The notes below the pieces were generated by a model that did not search any database, had not been told where the DNA came from, and was given only the letters and a program-made list of their open reading frames with translations. This document shows positions 2,580 to 55,957 of a stretch of DNA of 64,000 bases, piece by piece. The DNA is from a virus: positions 40,022 through 104,021 of the IMG/VR virus record IMGVR_UViG_3300037628_000643; one strand, given 5' to 3'. Both the position numbers and the translations under genes were made by a program. Every line of letters begins with the position of its first letter. The stretch's first letter is position 1.

Positions 2580-2984
2580 ATGTTCAATATTGATGCAAGA
2601 GACTTATTGAATATCCCTGATGATATAATCAAAGAAATTGATCCTGCGATTCGCAAAGGTGCTATTATGGGTTCAAAATCAGTGGTCGCTAATAGTCCCG
2701 TATTAACAGGCTTATTCAAGGGAAACTGGAATGTTTCTCTAAACGAAACTTTTGATGGATCATTCTCAACTGAAGATCCATCAGGAAAATCAACACTTTC
2801 AAAAATGATTCAAAAAATAAATTCTTTCTCTATAAAGAAAGACAAGATGCTTTTTATACAAAATAATGTTTTAAATTCTGAAGAGCATGAATTTTATGCA
2901 GAGACAGTGGGCTACGACTTTAGCAAAAGCACTGCACTTAATATCGTAAAAAGCGCAGTCGTATCAGTGGATGCAATTAGATGA
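2580..2984 (+). CDS. Tail-completion protein, HK97 gp10-like (134 aa)
   Basis: The start chosen is ATG 2580, because AGGAGA lies just before it and an earlier in-frame ATG at 2502 would lie deep in the previous gene. The protein starts with acidic helices and has VANSPVLTGLFKGNW around residues 38-52; the Ser-Pro-Val-x-Thr-Gly-x-Phe/Leu-Lys/Arg-x-x-Trp signature is common in HK97 gp10-type tail-completion proteins. It overlaps the next gene by ATGA, which suggests coupled translation. Confidence 0.65.
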   Translation: MFNIDARDLLNIPDDIIKEIDPAIRKGAIMGSKSVVANSPVLTGLFKGNWNVSLNETFDGSFSTEDPSGKSTLSKMIQKINSFSIKKDKMLFIQNNVLNSEEHEFYAETVGYDFSKSTALNIVKSAVVSVDAIR

Positions 2985-3478
2985 ATTCATTTAAAAAAGA
3001 CCTTACAGCAATTTTCGTAGAGAATTTCAGTGAAGATATAATTGCTTATTTTGCTGATGGCTATCACAACGGGCCAACCGATTTCGGTAGTAGCTTTATT
3101 GATATGTCGGACTTCACCCCAACAACTCCAAATGAACAGCCTACGGAAGGCTCGTGGATGCGCATATCGATTGATGAAGGAGTGGTCGCCAATGACGCAA
3201 TTACGAATGGGGTAATAAAAGCAAAGCGAATGATTGGATTCGTTCAGTTCGACCTACTTTGGCATGAAGATGTTTCAAGCAAAGTTATTGATGAAACAAT
3301 AGAACCAGCGTTAGACCTGCTGTACCTAAATACAAGCTTTCGAGGTAGTGATGGAGATTCAGAAATATTTAATCAGCAGGATGTTCCCAAAGATACCATA
3401 ATAACAAGGGCCACAGGTAATAATGTCTGGAGTAAAAAGGAGCTCATATACCCATTTGTTTTGAGATATCTAGCTTGA
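2981..3478 (+). CDS. Probable tail terminator protein (165 aa)
   Basis: The gene follows the tail-completion gene by an ATGA overlap. Its length and pattern (Trp-Met-Arg-Ile-Ser near residue 59, then a beta strand FVQFDLLWHED) match the gpU/DUF4128-like tail terminators that cap the tube and join it to the neck. It is separated from the tube gene by an inserted endonuclease gene at 3532. Its TGA stop lies inside the TTGACA box of the next promoter. Confidence 0.55.
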   Translation: MNSFKKDLTAIFVENFSEDIIAYFADGYHNGPTDFGSSFIDMSDFTPTTPNEQPTEGSWMRISIDEGVVANDAITNGVIKAKRMIGFVQFDLLWHEDVSSKVIDETIEPALDLLYLNTSFRGSDGDSEIFNQQDVPKDTIITRATGNNVWSKKELIYPFVLRYLA

Positions 3479-22755: not shown

Positions 22756-23052
22756 CTAAGATTTTGAAAGCCTACCCATTAAAGCTTCAGATATATTTAC
22801 AAGTATTCTTCCTTTTGCATGAATAACCTTTACTCTTTGAGTCGTTTCAATTAAGCCCATTCTAAATGCAAGAATACCAAAAAGCTCATCAGCGAAACCT
22901 GAGGACATACTCATTACGTTAGAAAAGTCTAACCCAACAGTGCTTAAATCAGATATCTGCAAATCCACCTGATCTCTGTATTTTATGGCTAGAACTCTTG
23001 TGCATGGGTCTGTTTCTGTGATAACAATTATGTTGTGAATTGTAGGATTCAT
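22756..23052 (-). CDS. STAS-like DUF4325 protein (98 aa)
   Basis: The segment VGLDFSNVMSMSSGFADELFG (residues ~39-59) is the signature of STAS-like DUF4325 proteins. In bacteria these are often near histidine-kinase-like ATPases or phage/plasmid defence genes, and their function is not settled. Start taken as ATG 23052, which overlaps the HNH stop by ATGA; a longer upstream reading frame would run into the HNH gene. No ATPase partner is next to it here. Confidence 0.75.
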   Translation of the reverse strand: MNPTIHNIIVITETDPCTRVLAIKYRDQVDLQISDLSTVGLDFSNVMSMSSGFADELFGILAFRMGLIETTQRVKVIHAKGRILVNISEALMGRLSKS

Positions 23053-23486
23053 ACAGTTTCTCCATTTAGTCCTTCTCCGTTTTTGGAGTGCCACTCTATA
23101 TGGTGTTTGCTACATAACCATCGCACAGAAAGTGGATCTGAATAGTCATCATGGTGGGCATTAGTTCTATGGGTATTTCCGCAAATTTCACATGGTTTTT
23201 TCTCTAACTTACCGTCTCTCACTGCATTACCCACTATTATTTGAGCATTTCTTTTTAATGGATTATTTTTAATCCATTTTTGCTTGCACTTAGCGCCAGA
23301 CGCCTTTCCTTCTTTTGTCTTGCTGTATTCCTTCCTAGCAACAACCCTTTTCGGATTCATTGCCCTTGACTTGTCATATGTACTCTGGCACTCTTTGCAT
23401 TTTGGAGAAAGACCATCTGGACTAGCTGATCTCTTGCCAAACATTAATGATTCTTTTTCTTTGTTGCATGTCCTGCATAACTTCAT
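23049..23486 (-). CDS. HNH endonuclease, free-standing (145 aa)
   Basis: The first part has a zinc-type CRTCNKEKESLMF...CKECQ arrangement, then a basic linker, then CEICG and the HNH core NAHHDDYSDPLSVRWLC with SKHHIEWH. Start ATG 23486 with AGGAGA; an earlier ATG (23513) would lie in the terminator. It is placed between the SSB gene and the STAS-like gene, behind the SSB terminator, as expected for an inserted mobile gene. Confidence 0.85.
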   Translation of the reverse strand: MKLCRTCNKEKESLMFGKRSASPDGLSPKCKECQSTYDKSRAMNPKRVVARKEYSKTKEGKASGAKCKQKWIKNNPLKRNAQIIVGNAVRDGKLEKKPCEICGNTHRTNAHHDDYSDPLSVRWLCSKHHIEWHSKNGEGLNGETV

Positions 23487-23503
23487 ATATTCTCCTAGAA
23501 AAA

Positions 23504-23524
23504 AAGGCCTCACTTAGAGGCCTT
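23504..23524 (-). terminator. Leftward terminator after SSB gene
   Basis: Perfect 8-bp stem AAGGCCTC / GAGGCCTT with a 5-nt loop; on the minus strand it is followed by TTTTTT. It lies 11 bp after the TGA at 23536 that would end the read-through form of the SSB. Confidence 0.85.
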
Positions 23525-23535
23525 TATATTACCCA

Positions 23536-23586
23536 TCAGAAGGGAATTTCGTCCGAATCGAAATCATCAAAATCGTTACCAGTTAG
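23536..23586 (-). other. In-frame acidic SSB tip after amber stop
   Basis: Directly after the TAG (23587-23589) the same frame reads LTGNDFDDFDSDEIPF and then TGA (23536-23538). Asp/Phe-rich sequence ending in Asp-Glu-Ile-Pro-Phe is the hallmark of the C-terminal tip of bacterial and phage SSBs, used to bind partner proteins. The TAG sits in a perfect 12-bp palindrome AGTTAGCTAACT (23581-23592). It is either read through, the result of a mutation, or a decayed end. Confidence 0.8.
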
Positions 23587-24084
23587 CTAACTTTTATTTT
23601 GAAACGGATTAGCGCCCTGTTGAGCAGGAGAATTCCCCACCGCACCTTGAGCAGGAGCTGCAGTACCACCAATCGCCTTGGGGTTTTTAACCTCGTTTTT
23701 GTCTTCGTAGCCTTGACTCTTAACTACCTTGACCGTACCGGAGATCATTTTGCTAAGCAGATTTTTTGGGTCTAGCATCGCTTTTGGATCTGTTACGCCA
23801 CATGCGTTGCATAGACGTCCATATTCTGAGCGAGCAACCTTATTCTCTGTTCCGTCTTTTTTGACAAGGTAGTAGTTCATCCAGATCTTGCGACCATTGT
23901 ATTTTTCGCCTACAACGTCGAGTACAACCTCAACATAAATAGAACTTTCATTTCCCTGCTTCGACTCAGAGCTTGCAACAAGAAAGGTATTCTCATGCGC
24001 TTCCATCGCACCAAAATCACCGCCTTCCTGCATTTCTTGATCAATATTATCAAAGTTTGCGAAATCACCTAAATTAACTGTCAT
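23587..24084 (-). CDS. Single-stranded DNA-binding protein, DUF669 type (165 aa)
   Basis: Pattern of DUF669 phage SSBs: acidic N-terminus (NLGDFANFDNIDQEMQEGGDF), a beta barrel core with SIYVEVVLDVVGEKYNGRKIW, and a Gly/Ala/Pro/Gln-rich flexible linker (AIGGTAAPAQGAVGNSPAQQ). It would coat ssDNA in replication and recombination, next to a RecA-like ATPase of the usual partner type. The annotated end, NPFQNKS then TAG, lacks the acidic tip of this family; that tip lies in frame right after the stop. Confidence 0.85.
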   Translation of the reverse strand: MTVNLGDFANFDNIDQEMQEGGDFGAMEAHENTFLVASSESKQGNESSIYVEVVLDVVGEKYNGRKIWMNYYLVKKDGTENKVARSEYGRLCNACGVTDPKAMLDPKNLLSKMISGTVKVVKSQGYEDKNEVKNPKAIGGTAAPAQGAVGNSPAQQGANPFQNKS

Positions 24085-24131: not shown

Positions 24132-24917
24132 TTACCATGCTGCCAAAAGCGCATTAAGATCAAGAGGCATCTCATCAGGCAGACCTTTTTGCGATCTGTT
24201 CTTCGCAAGGAAAGATGGTCGCTCTGTCGTATGAATGACTCGCTCACCTGTTCCAACTGCTTTTGCAATACCGTCTTTATCCATTCCTCCTTTTACTTTT
24301 CGGATAAACTTCTTGTACTTAGCAAAAAGTAATGCATCGCAATTCTTTTGCAAAAATCCAACAGCATCTTTATGAAGCTCTGGAATATAGCGATCATAAG
24401 GCTCGTTCTCTGGATCATTAACAGTTTTTACCTGTGAATGACCAATAAGCCAAACATTGATTTTAAGTTCTGATCGGATAAACTCAATTAACTCGAAAAA
24501 CTCTCCCCAAACTTTCAGAGATCGCTTATAACCTCCTCCATAGCCAAAGTCTTCGATATTATCTTTTGCCACACCTTTTTCATCGCCTTTCTTACACACA
24601 ACGTCATGAATCAGTGGCTCTAATGCGCTAACACTATCGATGACCAAGTTCTCAATGCCAGATGCAGCACCTTGATTATAAATCATGGTCAAAACACCGA
24701 CTACCTCGTCATAGGTCTTAAGCTTAACTCGACCATCTTCAAAGACGTATTGCTGTGCAGTCTCAAGCTCTGCAGTACCATCTTCTACCGGAATAAAGAA
24801 CGTGTTCGGCAGGTTTGCGCAAGATGTTGTTTTTCCAATTCCTGGGACACCATAAAGAAAAATAATCTTCTTATGATCTCTTTTACCAATGGCTACATTA
24901 CCAAAATCAAAACTCAT
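24132..24917 (-). CDS. RecA-like ATPase, AAA_24/Sak4 type (261 aa)
   Basis: Walker A GVPGIGKT (23-30), Walker B-like ENLVIDSVSAL near residue 90, and a GHSQVKTVNDP segment near 160 match the AAA_24/Sak4 group of short RecA-like phage ATPases, which promote single-strand annealing together with SSB. It is directly upstream of the SSB gene, the usual pair. A 47-base gap between the two has no gene. Confidence 0.85.
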   Translation of the reverse strand: MSFDFGNVAIGKRDHKKIIFLYGVPGIGKTTSCANLPNTFFIPVEDGTAELETAQQYVFEDGRVKLKTYDEVVGVLTMIYNQGAASGIENLVIDSVSALEPLIHDVVCKKGDEKGVAKDNIEDFGYGGGYKRSLKVWGEFFELIEFIRSELKINVWLIGHSQVKTVNDPENEPYDRYIPELHKDAVGFLQKNCDALLFAKYKKFIRKVKGGMDKDGIAKAVGTGERVIHTTERPSFLAKNRSQKGLPDEMPLDLNALLAAW

Positions 24918-38504: not shown

Positions 38505-38523
38505 TGTATTGGGAGTAATCCGC

Positions 38524-40116
38524 TTGGCAATATTTACAAATGACGAACTAATAGAAATAGAACGCCTCTCCGAGCAAGAGGGTCGTTCTAGCAGGTACAT
38601 AGCAACAGTTTTTGGATGTGGTAAGAGTACAATTTCTGATTTTCTCAGAGGCGATACGTATGCAGAATATCGGGAATCAAAGAAACCGACAGCCTCTGGA
38701 TCAATATCTGAGCCATACAAAAAAAGAAGACGACTGTCAGGAAGTAAGTTTGTCTTTACTTCTGCTCAAAACAATACGTATGTCCATGACAATTTTCTAA
38801 AATCACTCGAAGGATATTGTATTGATAATGATGCACAACTCATAGTCGGTACTTTTCATTATAATAAAAACGCCTATCAAAAACACGATGAGCAAGATGA
38901 TAATTGTTGGTTTGATCCAAAAATAAGAAAGTACATTCTTGATGAGGATATGGATATCGCTGATGATTTGATGTGGTGTGGAGAGCTTGATATTAATCCA
39001 ACGGCAGTGAATCCTATGACTGGCTTTCATAGCTATACAAAGCAGTCATGCGGCATTATTCCTCATGTAAAGGTGCAGCTAGAGAGCGTTCCTACTCCAA
39101 AGTACTTGGATGCAAAGATTCTTTATACTACAGGAGCGATAACGCAAAGAAACTATATTCAAAGAAAAACAGGGCAAATAGCATCTTTTCATCATATTTT
39201 TGGCGCATTGGTCGTTGAAGTTGATGAAGATGGAGATTGGTTTGCTCGTCAGCTTTCCGCAGAGTCAGATACAGGTGAGTTTTACGACCTTGATAGAAAA
39301 TATACACCTCATGGATCTGAGTTTTTAGATCACATTAAGGCTGTTAATTGGGGAGATATTCACGCTGCAAACCTAAACAAAACAGTTGCCAATGTAAGTT
39401 GGGGGTCAAACGACTCGATGCTCGACACACTAAAACCTAGACATCAGTTTCTACACGATGTATTTGATATGAATTATCGGAATCACCACAATATTAAGAA
39501 TGCTTATTTTAGATATAAAATGTTTATAGATGGGACAGAAAGTGTTCGAGATGAAGTTGAGATGACATCTAATGTTATGCTTGATATGACAAGGGACTTT
39601 TCAGAGATAATTGTCGTTCAGAGCAACCATGACTTGGCACTTAAGAAATGGTTAACCGAACAGGATTATCGAACAGATCCAGTGAACGCAGAGTTTTTTC
39701 TTGAGATGCAACTCGCTTCTTATCAGGCTATTAAAGGCGGCGGTAAGTTTGCCGTATTTGAGCATGCATGCAAGACGATAAATGAGAAATTAATTGACGT
39801 AAGATTCTTGGGTGAGGATGAGTCGTTCATTGTTTGTGGCGATATCGAGTGTGGACAACATGGCGCGAATGGAAATTCAGGAGCCAGAGGGTCTGTGCGA
39901 GCATTTCAGCTTCAAGGTCGCAGGTTCAATGTGGGTCATTCTCATTCAATTTCGATAAAAGATGGCGTCTATACAGCAGGCGCATGTATGTCTGCAGAAG
40001 AAACATCTTACGCAAAAGGAGGTGGAAGCTGGAGCTTTGGACACATCATTACCTATCCAAATGGCAAACGTGCAATTATTTCTATTAAGAACGGAAAGTG
40101 GCGAAAAAATGATTGA
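38524..40116 (+). CDS. HTH plus calcineurin-like phosphoesterase protein (530 aa)
   Basis: Start TTG 38524 after GGGAG. N-terminal helix-turn-helix (IERLSEQEGRSSRYIATVFG, then GKSTISDFLRG). The metallophosphoesterase motifs follow: NWGDIHA near residue 275, VVQSNHDLALKKWL near 360 (the GNHD position), and VGHSHS near 475. The fusion looks like a DNA-guided phosphoesterase or nuclease. T5 A1, a pre-early protein with DNA-related roles, is a possible relative, but I could not check it. Its TGA lies in a TTGACA box and a strong terminator follows. Confidence 0.7.
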   Translation: MAIFTNDELIEIERLSEQEGRSSRYIATVFGCGKSTISDFLRGDTYAEYRESKKPTASGSISEPYKKRRRLSGSKFVFTSAQNNTYVHDNFLKSLEGYCIDNDAQLIVGTFHYNKNAYQKHDEQDDNCWFDPKIRKYILDEDMDIADDLMWCGELDINPTAVNPMTGFHSYTKQSCGIIPHVKVQLESVPTPKYLDAKILYTTGAITQRNYIQRKTGQIASFHHIFGALVVEVDEDGDWFARQLSAESDTGEFYDLDRKYTPHGSEFLDHIKAVNWGDIHAANLNKTVANVSWGSNDSMLDTLKPRHQFLHDVFDMNYRNHHNIKNAYFRYKMFIDGTESVRDEVEMTSNVMLDMTRDFSEIIVVQSNHDLALKKWLTEQDYRTDPVNAEFFLEMQLASYQAIKGGGKFAVFEHACKTINEKLIDVRFLGEDESFIVCGDIECGQHGANGNSGARGSVRAFQLQGRRFNVGHSHSISIKDGVYTAGACMSAEETSYAKGGGSWSFGHIITYPNGKRAIISIKNGKWRKND

Positions 40117-41008: not shown

Positions 41009-41502
41009 GCACCGTATACTTTATCTCTGACACGCATTTTGGTCACAGAAACATTTGCAAGTACAGAACAGAATTTAACTCTGCCGAAGAGCATGATGAG
41101 TTTGTGTTCGACAATATTATGTCAACTGGAAGTAAGCGGGATACGCTCTGGATGCTAGGTGATCTATTTTTCACTGAAGAATCAATAAAAAAATTTGACG
41201 AGATAAACAATAAATTCAACTGTGTCAACGTTATTTTTGGTAATCATTGTACCGAGGGTAAAGGAAAAATTATTAGCAAATACATAGCTAATAATTGCAA
41301 TCGGTTTGGATCTATGTTTAAGTATAAGGGTTTCTGGTTGACTCATGCACCGATACACGCAAATGAACTGAGAGGAAAGTATAATATTCATGGGCATACG
41401 CATCATCATATTATTGATGATCATCGGTATATAAATGTTTCCGTTGAGAATATTAATTATAAGCCAATTTCATATAACGAGATAATGGAGAGAGTGAAAT
41501 GA
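41005..41502 (+). CDS. Calcineurin-like metallophosphatase (165 aa)
   Basis: All motifs in order: SDTHFGH (Asp9, His11), MLGDLF, FGNHC, LTHAPIH and HGHTHHH. This is a short, stand-alone phosphoesterase of the YfcE-like/phage type, with substrate unknown. Overlaps neighbours by ATGA on both sides. Confidence 0.85.
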   Translation: MSTVYFISDTHFGHRNICKYRTEFNSAEEHDEFVFDNIMSTGSKRDTLWMLGDLFFTEESIKKFDEINNKFNCVNVIFGNHCTEGKGKIISKYIANNCNRFGSMFKYKGFWLTHAPIHANELRGKYNIHGHTHHHIIDDHRYINVSVENINYKPISYNEIMERVK

Positions 41503-41816
41503 AGAATATATTGTATGAAAATACACATGGACTAATAGAGTTTCTTATTGAGATAGGAGAGGATGTGGAGTACTCAATGCAATTTAAGGTTTTCGAAGTG
41601 ACCAGCCGGAATTTAGATGACTCTCCGTATGGTATGGAAGAATATTTAACTGGATCAGTTAAGTGGGACGGATGTTCGAATTTTAATTTCGGAGACGAGG
41701 GATATATTCATCTTTGTGGAAAGAGTGGGATTATTACTCATAACTTTATAGTCAGTAAAGTATTTGAGCTGGCTGAAAGCACTATAACCAATTTTGATAT
41801 GGATGTTGCGTATTAG
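41499..41816 (+). CDS. Hypothetical acidic protein (105 aa)
   Basis: Starts MKNILYENTHGLIEFLIEIGEDVEYSMQFK. The sequence is beta-rich with no motif. Ends with TAG, and the next start lies 24 bases downstream in the same frame, which is probably chance. Confidence 0.55.
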   Translation: MKNILYENTHGLIEFLIEIGEDVEYSMQFKVFEVTSRNLDDSPYGMEEYLTGSVKWDGCSNFNFGDEGYIHLCGKSGIITHNFIVSKVFELAESTITNFDMDVAY

Positions 41817-41840
41817 CAGGATATCGATAGGAGAATAATT

Positions 41841-42041
41841 ATGCGATTAATCGAAGATCTACACAATCAGATATTTGAAATACAAGACAAGATAAAGACA
41901 ATACAGAGCCAGTGTTCACATCCAGAGTCTGCTGTCGAGTCTAAAAATAGTTCTGCTACGGGAGACCCCTATAGTAATGATGAATATTGGACAGATAACC
42001 ATTGTCAGTTGTGCGGTAAAAAATGGCGCGGAAAACAGTGA
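41841..42041 (+). CDS. Small zinc-binding protein with coiled-coil (66 aa)
   Basis: An N-terminal helix (LIEDLHNQIFEIQDKIKTIQSQ) is followed by CSHPES and CQLCGKKW, forming a Cys-His/Cys-x-x-Cys zinc site. Good ribosome site (GGAGAA). Confidence 0.65.
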   Translation: MRLIEDLHNQIFEIQDKIKTIQSQCSHPESAVESKNSSATGDPYSNDEYWTDNHCQLCGKKWRGKQ

Positions 42042-44466: not shown

Positions 44467-44808
44467 ATGATATATATCGCATCACCGTACACATCGGTAT
44501 TGCCGAACAAGAACGGAATTAATGTAATGCAACGCCGTTATGAGGTTGTTATGGAATTCGTTGCAAATAATCTTGAGATGCCATTTTTCAGTCCGATACT
44601 CTATTGCCATGAAATGGCAAAGAAGTACGAGCTGCCAAAAACATTTGGTTACTGGCAAAAATTAAATCATCATTATATTGATATATCCACTGAGGTGTGG
44701 GTATTAAAAATGAATGGCTGGGAGGAGTCTAAAGGTGTTAGTGATGAAATACAATACGCAACAGAGATAGGTAAGAATGTTATTTACGTTAAAATGGAGG
44801 ATTTATGA
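44467..44808 (+). CDS. DUF1937-like nucleoside deoxyribosyltransferase-type protein (113 aa)
   Basis: Starts MIYIASPYTS, with RRYEVVMEFVANNLEMPFFSPILYCHEMAKKYELP and EVWVLKMNGWEESKGVSDEIQYA. This is the DUF1937 family, related in fold to nucleoside 2-deoxyribosyltransferases; the Glu of SKGVSDEI fits the nucleophile place. It could handle nucleosides. ATGA overlap with the next gene. Confidence 0.75.
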   Translation: MIYIASPYTSVLPNKNGINVMQRRYEVVMEFVANNLEMPFFSPILYCHEMAKKYELPKTFGYWQKLNHHYIDISTEVWVLKMNGWEESKGVSDEIQYATEIGKNVIYVKMEDL

Positions 44809-45953
44809 GTTATAGAATTAAAAGCATTAATGAGGAAAAGAAGTTAGCAGCATTACTTTCGTATAATTCAGTTGAGCTTTTTAAGGAAGCAGGATGTATT
44901 ATTGCTGGAGGCGCGATAACTTCTGTGTTTACAAACCAAGAAGTTAATGATATTGATGTGTATTTTAAATCTGAGGAGAGCTTGTTTCGAACATTAGCTT
45001 CTATCTTTTGTGCGGAAGAATATCACAACTTTACAGAGATGGAACAGTTTGAATTTATCTATAATGGCAGTAGTCTTCGGACGCTGATGTTTCAGTGCGA
45101 AGGGCAGCAAGAAGTTCAGTTCATGACATTCAAATATTTTGATTCAGCAGAGGATATTTTTGAAGCATTTGATTTTACATGTTGTATGGGTGCTTTCGAC
45201 TGCGCCTCTGGCGAATTTGTGCTTCATGATGACTTTATGAAACATAACTCACAAAGATATCTTAAGTTCAATAATGGGACAGATTACCCGTTAATGTCAC
45301 TTTTGCGTGTTGATAAATACCGGAAAAAGGGCTTTTCAATATCAAAAGCTGAACTGCTTCGCGTTGCATTTTCATGTATGTCATTGAATATTTCGACATG
45401 GGAAGAGCTACGAAATCATATTGGTGGTATGTACGGGTATGATATGAGTGATGTTTTTGACGAAACTCAAGACTTTGATATCGCTAATGCTTGTGATCAG
45501 CTGAGCAACCTTGACGAGAAAGACATTAAGGTAATCGTTCTGGATGATAAAAACTTAAGTTTGTTTAAAATAGCTGAAAAGTTTTGTGATATCGAGATAG
45601 ACAATAAAGAGGAGGTTTTCGATGACAAGAAGTACATTTACAAATGCGTAAATTCAGCTTGGAAGTCACCGATATCAAGCTCTAAGATATCCTATAAGGA
45701 GGGCGATATTATTGACACGAAAAATACTGGCAAGCTGTTTTTTAATAAAAATTCAGATAACTTGTATTTTGAGTCATGTTATTGGGTTGAGGCCGAGATA
45801 ATATCTGGAGATTCAGAGCCTTTAGAAAATAATAATGAGAAAATAGTTATAAACGGGCAGATAAAAATAGTCAGGACTTTTATTTATGACCGTAGAAATG
45901 GTGAAAAAATACAGAAAATTATGGATAAGTATTTAATAGATTTTGATGAGTAG
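44805..45953 (+). CDS. Nucleotidyltransferase-fold protein (382 aa)
   Basis: The segment CIIAGGAITSVFTNQEVNDIDVYF near residues 28-50 has the Gly-Gly...Asp-x-Asp pattern of polymerase-beta-like nucleotidyltransferases. The rest has no recognised motif. It may transfer a nucleotide to RNA or protein. ATGA start overlap; ends TAG before an extended -10 box. Confidence 0.55.
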   Translation: MSYRIKSINEEKKLAALLSYNSVELFKEAGCIIAGGAITSVFTNQEVNDIDVYFKSEESLFRTLASIFCAEEYHNFTEMEQFEFIYNGSSLRTLMFQCEGQQEVQFMTFKYFDSAEDIFEAFDFTCCMGAFDCASGEFVLHDDFMKHNSQRYLKFNNGTDYPLMSLLRVDKYRKKGFSISKAELLRVAFSCMSLNISTWEELRNHIGGMYGYDMSDVFDETQDFDIANACDQLSNLDEKDIKVIVLDDKNLSLFKIAEKFCDIEIDNKEEVFDDKKYIYKCVNSAWKSPISSSKISYKEGDIIDTKNTGKLFFNKNSDNLYFESCYWVEAEIISGDSEPLENNNEKIVINGQIKIVRTFIYDRRNGEKIQKIMDKYLIDFDE

Positions 45954-45966
45954 TGTTATAATACAC
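45953..45966 (+). promoter_or_regulatory. TATAAT in GTGT/ACAC inverted repeat
   Basis: GTGT-TATAAT-ACAC (45953-45966), with TGT before TATAAT giving an extended -10. It lies 27 bp before the thioredoxin start. No strong -35. Confidence 0.5.
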
Positions 45967-45992
45967 GACCAAAAAACAACATAAGGAACAAC

Positions 45993-46241
45993 ATGAACTT
46001 AATTCTTTTTAGTGCGCCTGCGTGGTGCACTCCTTGTAAGATGCTTAAAAAATACGCAGATGAGAATAACGTTGAGTTCACTGCAATATATGATATTGAT
46101 ACAGAAGAAGGTGCAGCTATCGCTCAAAAATACGCCGTGAGAGGTGTGCCAATGGTGATTAGGTTGGATGATGACGTGGAAAAAGGAAGGTTACTAGGTA
46201 TGGATATTAATAAGTTTAATGAATTGAGGAATGCAAGTTGA
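45993..46241 (+). CDS. Thioredoxin-like protein (82 aa)
   Basis: Short thioredoxin/glutaredoxin fold with active site WCTPC (11-15) and cis-Pro in RGVPMVIRL. It overlaps the ribonucleotide reductase gene and is the likely electron donor for it. About the size of NrdH/glutaredoxin-like proteins. Confidence 0.85.
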   Translation: MNLILFSAPAWCTPCKMLKKYADENNVEFTAIYDIDTEEGAAIAQKYAVRGVPMVIRLDDDVEKGRLLGMDINKFNELRNAS

Positions 46242-53327: not shown

Positions 53328-54197
53328 ATGAATTTCAAACTAATATGCACAACAAGAAATAATTATGAAATCAAATACAGCCGCAAGACATTTGCAGGAG
53401 GTGAGGTTCAAGTAAAGCTACTTAAGTATCCTGTCGGAGACACTTTTGGGCCAGTACTGATTGATGGCTTAATTAAGTCGTCTGATATGTTGATGGAGTT
53501 ATTACTGCTAGCTAATGCACTTCATCACTCAGGCAAGAGTGGGAAAATATCGGCTAATATTCATTATTTGCCGTATGCTAGGCAAGACAGGATATGTACT
53601 TTAGGAGAGTCTTTTGCATTAGAAAACTTCATGCATACACTGACTAATAGTTGCTTGGAGCACATTATAGTTGAGGATGTTCATTCTGACGTAGCCATAT
53701 TGTTGGCAAATAAAATTCACTCCGGTGGATGCTGGAGCTTTATCAGTCAGACGGATATAGTCTCTCCGCACATTCCGCAAGGAGTCACACTAATTTCTCC
53801 AGACAAAGGTGCTTTAAGAAAAACAATTGCATCCGCCATTGCTACTGATAATAATTTTGTCACCTTTAATAAAGTTCGAGATCCGCATTCTGGTTCTATT
53901 TCTGGTACAGAGATTATTGATGGAGAGGAATTTGTTGATGGCAAAGTTTGTTTGATACTGGATGATATTCTCGATGGAGGGCGTACGTTTGTGCCAATTA
54001 TAGAAAAACTGTTTGACAAAGGAGCTAAGGCAGTATATCTTTACGCAACTCACGCAATCCTTCCTTATGGGTTAGATGCTGTAATGAATGTAGGATGCGA
54101 TGGAGTCTTTTACAAAAACAGCTTTAGAGATGACACTGATGGAGAATTGTTCTATCATGTCTCAAAAATGAAATCAACACTGGAGGAAAAACTATGA
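53328..54197 (+). CDS. prs: PRPP synthetase-like protein (289 aa), possible Adps
   Basis: Motifs of ribose-phosphate diphosphokinases: NIHYLPYARQDRI (ATP site), FNKVRDPHSGSISG, and the PRPP loop LILDDILDGGRTFVP. In cells it makes PRPP from ribose-5-phosphate. In the described NAD+ reconstitution pathway 1 of phages the homologous enzyme, Adps, makes ADPR-pyrophosphate from ADP-ribose for a NAMPT homolog. The next gene is such a homolog with an ATGA overlap. Which substrate is used cannot be told from motifs. Confidence 0.82.
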   Translation: MNFKLICTTRNNYEIKYSRKTFAGGEVQVKLLKYPVGDTFGPVLIDGLIKSSDMLMELLLLANALHHSGKSGKISANIHYLPYARQDRICTLGESFALENFMHTLTNSCLEHIIVEDVHSDVAILLANKIHSGGCWSFISQTDIVSPHIPQGVTLISPDKGALRKTIASAIATDNNFVTFNKVRDPHSGSISGTEIIDGEEFVDGKVCLILDDILDGGRTFVPIIEKLFDKGAKAVYLYATHAILPYGLDAVMNVGCDGVFYKNSFRDDTDGELFYHVSKMKSTLEEKL

Positions 54198-55957
54198 CTA
54201 AAATTATTACATCGCCGATCTTTGACACCGATTTTTATAAAGTAGGACACGCCAGCCAATATCCAAAAGGCACTAAAAAAATCTACTCAAACATGACGCC
54301 AAGAAGCGCTCGGCTATTCAAGGGGAGTAAATTCTTTGACGATAAGGTTGTTGTGATTGGCTTGCAGTCATTTGTCCAAGAGTATTTGATTGATACTTGG
54401 AATAATGAATTCTTTAAAAAATCGAAAGAAGAGATTATAGAAGCATATATCGAAACCATGGATTTTTCCTTGGGCGAAGGAGTTGTTCTTCCAGATCACG
54501 TTGTAGCGCTTCACGACTTGGGTTATTTGCCGTTACGAATCAAAGCAATCGAAGAAGGTAACCGAGTCAATATCCGAGTTCCAATCACTACGATTACCGA
54601 GACTATCAGCGAGTTTTTCTGGCTTGTTAATTACCTTGAGACTCCAAAATCTTCAGAACTGTGGCACCCAATGACAAGCGCAACAACAGCCTTTGAATTT
54701 AAGCGTATCTTTGTAGATGCAGCCATTAAAACAGGATCTCCAGTTGATTTCGCAGCTCTACAGGGTCACGATTTTTCAGCTAGAGGGATGCAAAACAGGC
54801 AGTCTGCCTCTAAAAATATAGGACACCTACTCCCTTTTATTGGTACAGATACTATTTCGGCAATCCAATGGATTAAGAAGTATTACTTTCCTTCTGAAGG
54901 AGATCCAGTAGGGGTTAGCGTGCCAGCAACAGAGCATTCTGTTAGCTCTCTGAATATTGCGCTAAATATGATTCGAACAGGATGCTCACAACTGGAAGCT
55001 GAGCGTCAATTCATTAAGCGACTAATTACTGAGCAATATCCCACTGGAATTGTGTCAATTGTTAGTGATACATATGATTATTACAGCATTATAACCGAAG
55101 TAATTCCTTCGTTAAAAGAAGAAATTATGTCTAGACAGCCTAATGCTATTGGCTTGAACAAGGTTGTTGTTCGACCTGATAGCGGAGATCCAGTCAGGAT
55201 TATTTGTGGCGATGAATTCAAGACTATAAAGAACGAACCAGACACGTTAGATGAATGGAAGGAGTGGGTAGCAGAGTCTATGGACGACCAGTTCCGCACT
55301 AATCTTGATGCAGAAGAGCCTCATTCGTCAGAAACAGAGCTATGGCAGCGTGGAAATGAATACTACAAAGTAACATACGAGCCAGATCTAAATCGCCATG
55401 ATAAGCAATATTATTATGTTGATAACTACGGCTCAGCTGTTAGTAGGTGCGAATTCACTGGAATTACTCCAACACCTGAGCAAAAAGGCTCAATCCAGTG
55501 TTTGTGGGAAACATTCGGTGGCACAATTACAAGTACTGGGCATAAGTTGCTCGATGAGCATATTGGTCTTATCTATGGTGATTCAATCACTCTGGCGAGA
55601 GCTCAAGAAATTATGGATCGACTAGCTGATAAAGGTTTTGCTAGTGGTAACGTAGTTATGGGTATCGGGAGTTATGAATATGGGATGAAATCACGAGACA
55701 CCTTCGGCTTCGCAATCAAGGCAACGTATGCAGAAGTTGACGATTTAAAGATCGATATCTACAAAGACCCAAAAACTGGAGATGGAACAAAGACTTCGGC
55801 AAAAGGTTTGTTACGAGTTGAAAAAGAAGGCGATGACTATGTGCTTTATGATCAACAGGAAACAGATGAGGGCGGAGAGCTGAAGGTCGTCTTCGAAGAT
55901 GGAGTTGCGCACAACATCCAAACTTGGGATGAAATTAAAGCGCGATTAAATAAGTAA
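54194..55957 (+). CDS. nadV: Nicotinamide phosphoribosyltransferase-like (587 aa), possible Namat
   Basis: NAMPT signatures: DTDFYKVGHASQYPKG, LQGHDFSARGMQNRQS, GTDTISAI, VPATEHSVSS, VVRPDSGDPV, GDSITLARAQEIMDRL and MGIGSYEYG. It would join nicotinamide with PRPP (or with ADPR-pyrophosphate if this is the Namat type) to restore NAD. It is a two-gene unit with the PRPP synthetase-like gene. Length is slightly above the usual 490-residue enzyme, with an insertion of ~90 residues near 350-440 (DEWKEWVAESMDD and on). Confidence 0.88.
   Translation: MTKIITSPIFDTDFYKVGHASQYPKGTKKIYSNMTPRSARLFKGSKFFDDKVVVIGLQSFVQEYLIDTWNNEFFKKSKEEIIEAYIETMDFSLGEGVVLPDHVVALHDLGYLPLRIKAIEEGNRVNIRVPITTITETISEFFWLVNYLETPKSSELWHPMTSATTAFEFKRIFVDAAIKTGSPVDFAALQGHDFSARGMQNRQSASKNIGHLLPFIGTDTISAIQWIKKYYFPSEGDPVGVSVPATEHSVSSLNIALNMIRTGCSQLEAERQFIKRLITEQYPTGIVSIVSDTYDYYSIITEVIPSLKEEIMSRQPNAIGLNKVVVRPDSGDPVRIICGDEFKTIKNEPDTLDEWKEWVAESMDDQFRTNLDAEEPHSSETELWQRGNEYYKVTYEPDLNRHDKQYYYVDNYGSAVSRCEFTGITPTPEQKGSIQCLWETFGGTITSTGHKLLDEHIGLIYGDSITLARAQEIMDRLADKGFASGNVVMGIGSYEYGMKSRDTFGFAIKATYAEVDDLKIDIYKDPKTGDGTKTSAKGLLRVEKEGDDYVLYDQQETDEGGELKVVFEDGVAHNIQTWDEIKARLNK

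Follow-up and report, generated by a model that had tools for sequence, protein, structure and literature searches.

An SSB gene interrupted by an in-frame amber codon

The stretch of DNA analysed here (the window, 64,000 nucleotides) is contained in an IMG/VR virus record of 104,021 bases, which represents a single consensus of an uncultivated phage. On the minus strand of the window, 165 sense codons of a DUF669 single-stranded DNA-binding protein (SSB) extend over positions 23590..24084, starting with an ATG at 24084, and encode a predicted OB-fold core (residues ~30-140) and a disordered linker, at the end of which the motif GANPFQNKS is found. The minus-strand translation ends with ...QQGANPFQNKS and is closed by an in-frame TAG (23587..23589, minus strand), four residues past the P-F motif, that is at the usual end of the short form of this family. 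The same frame, with no frame change, continues with the 16 sense codons of an acidic docking tip (LTGNDFDDFDSDEIPF, 23539..23586, minus strand) and is finally closed by a TGA (23536..23538, minus strand). The amber codon lying in frame between SSB and acidic tip, as proposed in an initial annotation of this DNA, was thus confirmed together with the 16 codons and the TGA. The tail frame contains none of the start codons ATG, GTG and TTG, which makes it improbable that the tip is a separate gene.

At a distance of 11 bp from the end of the extended frame (23536), a hairpin with a T run resembles an intrinsic terminator (AAAGGCCTCTAAGTGAGGCCTTT, 23503..23525, minus strand). This position had been taken as evidence for the longer gene, and indeed it suits a longer ancestral gene, but it does not prove present translation. 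The TAG also lies, as previously remarked, inside a 12-bp palindrome (AGTTAGCTAACT, 23581..23592); perfect palindromes of this size are expected by chance about 16 times in 64 kb (64,000/4^6), and their number makes this one unexceptional, so that we rejected it as a signal.

Assignment to DUF669, already made in the initial annotation, holds: the protein matches PF05037 with 30.1 bits, above the curated cut-off of 21, and is also matched by PHROG families annotated as single-strand-binding protein. The AlphaFold model has a confident five-strand core, in which most of residues 31-140 exceed a pLDDT of 90, and is disordered towards the C-terminus. The best PDB match of the model is PrgE (E 7e-5), an ssDNA-binding protein with an OB fold from pCF10; bacterial SSBs come next with weaker scores; the core is therefore predicted to be an OB-fold ssDNA-binding domain. 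Directly upstream of the SSB gene lies that of a Sak4-like RecA-family annealing protein (24132..24917, minus strand; phrog_124, E 5e-40), a known functional partner of SSBs of this type, and a primase is located further upstream. Directly downstream of the terminator an Endonuclease VII/HNH-like gene was found (phrog_2340, 23049..23486, minus strand), with a Cas4-type exonuclease and a helicase beyond. The gene encodes the SSB that partners Sak4 in this phage. No further DUF669 gene is present, PF00436 SSBs are absent and no second SSB was found.

Some further features of the phage were recorded. The junction between SSB and Cas4 exonuclease looks like an insertion hot spot: in the window (22756-23486) it carries the phrog_2340 gene and a DUF4325 (STAS-like) ORF, in the loci L004, L010 and L011 an unrelated 214-aa ORF with no Pfam match, and in L002, L003 and L005 no insert. 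Elsewhere in the window there are genes for a DNA transfer protein (38509-40116, phrog_1745; T5-like), for a thymidylate synthase ~61% identical to the enzyme of Vibrio phage SSP002 (32862-33698) and for a nicotinamide phosphoribosyltransferase (54194-55957), and this combination suggests a marine gammaproteobacterial host. The left arm of the phage contains a low-complexity repeat of short units (L113:13825-14200, the positions being identical in the phage) that translates as a run of ~15 tyrosines.

The tail and the two C-terminal forms of the family

The tips of SSBs decide which repair and replication proteins reach single-stranded DNA. In the six frames of the whole 104-kb phage the tail is the sole acidic [ILVM]PF-stop end, while dinucleotide-shuffled genomes contain 0.017 such ends per genome (~1.4e-6 per stop), by a criterion that was devised after the tail had been seen. 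The phrog_378 score of the SSB is 32.9 bits without the tail and 37.3 bits with it, and in the latter case the match reaches the last position of the profile. With a profile built from tailed relatives the tail adds only 2.4 bits, so the homology argument by score alone is modest, and the argument from composition is the stronger one. On these sequence comparisons we regard the tail as homologous coding sequence and not as a product of chance; shuffle statistics and completion of the phrog_378 profile both agree with the previous proposal that the Asp-rich tail is truly the partner-docking tip of an SSB.

An alignment of DUF669 homologs had been suggested as a check in the initial annotation. 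Scans with Sak4 and primase gave ~80 phage loci, most of them with a DUF669 SSB adjoining Sak4, and further loci were obtained from a survey of 399 genomes of one phylum; 75 distinct homologs, from metagenomic and prophage sequences, were counted. The xPF tip is absent from 64 of the 75 and present in 11, and an acidic xPF tip behind the stop, searched for in any frame within 60 codons, occurs in none (0/75). As a general pattern, the majority of Sak4-adjacent DUF669 SSBs end just past a P-W/F motif and a minority carry an acidic xPF tip. Phages thus have two forms of Sak4-partner SSB, tip-bearing and tip-less, which differ at one boundary. An acidic end that is related to this tip but distinct from it, GQDDDPGFTPF, was observed in an HK620-type SSB adjoining Sak4 (L148, ~2880-3450).

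The position of this boundary was evaluated in a larger set (90 sequences, alignment A4), including named phages and the SSB of the window, using an aromatic end motif (P/A/N/S followed by W/F) that was picked after inspection. Among the 73 short forms with such a motif near the end, 72 have their stop 0-6 residues beyond it (median 4), while tailed forms run on for 10-29 residues. In the window SSB the TAG lies 4 residues beyond NPF, as in short forms, and the extended end 21 residues beyond, and the amber therefore falls at the boundary of the two forms of the family. From these sequence positions, the gene retains the coding sequence of the long form, and the product that ends at the amber is probably a normal short-form SSB. 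That the TAG is located exactly at the usual short-form end had escaped the earlier reading of this locus; the cut product is therefore probably a complete, ordinary SSB, and loss of the tail or a polymorphism is favoured over a switch between two products. It is possible that the aromatic motif, too, serves in docking.

Syntenic phages, whose primases are 59-66% identical to that of the window, possess short-form SSBs ending in NAFARR or NAFARK. These SSBs are only about 25-27% identical to the window SSB, so the gene does not come from the close lineage of those phages. No closely similar SSB was found in IMG/VR, GTDB genomes, phages and plasmids with SSB peptides, Sak4, primase, endonuclease and the tip motif as queries (little weight attaches to the negative tip-motif search, whose pattern was strict and unvalidated, and alignment A1 was too divergent to serve as a query).

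Decoding of the amber codon

The window gene holds both forms of the family parted by one stop codon, and it may represent a snapshot of a change of form, or both forms may be made. If the amber were suppressed by host or phage, or TAG recoded, the codon would be read as an amino acid and the long form would be the normal product. In favour of this there is only the intactness of the tail, together with the reassignment of TAG in some phages (PMC9523058). However, TAG closes 24 of the 168 ORFs of the 104-kb record, and 8 of the 68 with at least 150 codons. A suppressor tRNA (CTA anticodon) was not found in this record, which is possibly incomplete and in which tRNA-Met and tRNA-Arg were the only tRNAs detected. 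Phage-encoded suppression thus finds no support, and in the rest of the phage TAG serves as a normal stop.

TAG-terminated ORFs with a long in-frame continuation were also checked by family search. The pairs at L114:6604-7452 and at 41499-42041 of the window have different families on either side and were rejected as separate genes. The candidate from 44805-45953 to 46241 of the window, promising by its coordinates, was equally rejected: the families again differ on either side, and the extension belongs to a distinct gene, for a thioredoxin, that starts at an ATG of its own. In this region (44805-46241) a TAG-ending ORF runs in frame into the thioredoxin gene, which has a 4-bp overlap with the gene that follows, an arrangement that mimics read-through. 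A TAG-terminated ORF on the minus strand of L113 (481-1029) is followed by 85 in-frame codons with no family match, and is the sole long TAG pair not resolved as separate genes. A second clearly amber-interrupted gene was not found in the phage, and genome-wide recoding of TAG (genetic code 15) was rejected on the basis of stop usage, the lack of a suppressor tRNA and the lack of another demonstrated interrupted gene. As the RNA structure is also not unusual, recoding is unlikely in this phage, and host or phage suppression as a whole appears very improbable.

Another hypothesis is that of a programmed or tuned read-through, in which mostly tail-less SSB would be made together with a few percent carrying the docking tip, and mixed oligomers would recruit Sak4 and partners in a limited ratio. 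The stop coincides exactly with the border between two functional modules, the tip behind it is undamaged, with only 11 bp between its end and the terminator, and the partner-docking role of such a tip is established for HK620 (PMC5928155); moreover CUA follows the UAG, resembling part of the eukaryotic UGA-CUAG motif (named in PMC9841425). However, that motif is eukaryotic and follows UGA, and the match is inexact. The RNA after the stop does not fold unusually (z -1.19 against shuffles), the terminator is its sole stable hairpin, and it has no match among Rfam families. No tail behind a stop occurs in the 75 homologs, which are distant, and in bacteria read-through has been described as rare relative to frameshifting (PMC5373646). 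Programmed read-through, as advanced in the initial annotation, is consequently without support from these distant homologs or from RNA structure, and we consider a programmed two-form SSB unlikely, its positive evidence being limited to the placement of the stop and the integrity of the tail. If it were true, recruitment of Sak4 and other partners would be set by translational read-through at a tuned amber, and programmed read-through would be found in a recombination module of a DNA phage.

To evaluate the age of the stop, we simulated the decay of an unselected tail, whose key features survived in 35% of cases at 0.05 substitutions per site, 12% at 0.1 and 4% at 0.15. By these figures, either the stop is of recent origin, or it is an error, or the tail continues to be used; a close relative that would separate these possibilities was not found. 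An erroneous stop would mean a consensus error or a minority strain, the contig base being atypical of the phage population, in which an ordinary long-form SSB would be made. One base change would be enough, the remainder of the extended gene is intact to the terminator, and the record is a single consensus of an uncultivated virus; however, no signature of error is visible in the sequence, and the agreement of the stop with the end of the short forms would have to be accidental. This explanation too is doubtful.

Proposed loss of the tail and comparison with known systems

The most likely explanation, to which we give moderate confidence, is that the tail has been lost or that the nonsense allele is young and read through at trace level. 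The frame still encodes the long form, with OB fold, linker, P-F motif and acidic IPF tip, but the amber now ends the SSB where most relatives in the family end anyway. The main product would be the 165-aa short-form SSB, binding ssDNA normally and devoid of the docking tip by which Sak4 and further partners are recruited, while the tip would be made only at trace level, as any amber leaks. The underlying event may have been a recent nonsense change, present as a tail-loss allele or a population polymorphism and tolerated since the short form would be viable. This agrees with the 64 of 75 homologs having no xPF tip, the SSBs of syntenic relatives among them, and with the use of TAG as an ordinary stop in a phage where no suppressor tRNA was detected. 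Against tail loss, a perfectly preserved tip would be equally expected if it were still translated. Loss of the tail should also have a cost, because removal of the last six residues of the HK620 SSB reduces Sak4-dependent recombineering 10-fold (PMC5928155) and no other SSB was found in the phage. By analogy, the short-form product should still bind DNA but recruit partners less well, unless contact with Sak4 is made in a different way, as is presumably the case in the many short-form phages.

The closest functional parallel is the SSB of HK620 (HkaK, DUF669), whose gene also lies beside Sak4 and whose acidic, aromatic tip NDYPPF, formed by the last six residues, is needed to stimulate Sak4 and for the binding of Sak4 to SSB-coated ssDNA (PMC5928155). 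In HK620, however, the tip is translated with no intervening stop, and the protein belongs to another PHROG (phrog_743). The tailed DUF669 SSBs of L063 (PNSPFSRPQSDDIPF) and L053 (SAPWPSRQPASAGLDDDIPF) share with the window gene, in the same order, the OB domain, the linker, the P-F/W motif, a short spacer and the acidic IPF tip, but their frame is open from motif to tip. The short-form SSBs of Salicola phage CGphi29 (ending AKPPWAQ) and of L002 (ending GNAFARR) stop a few residues past the aromatic motif, like the window gene at its TAG, but behind their stop no acidic tail is encoded. Among prokaryotic genes, in-frame stops occur frequently and are mostly short-lived, and their over-representation in the mobilome has been remarked (Belinky et al. 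2021, PMC7918605). Our case resembles those in its single in-frame TAG followed by intact coding sequence, but differs in that the sequence behind the stop comprises only 16 codons, which form a complete functional module.
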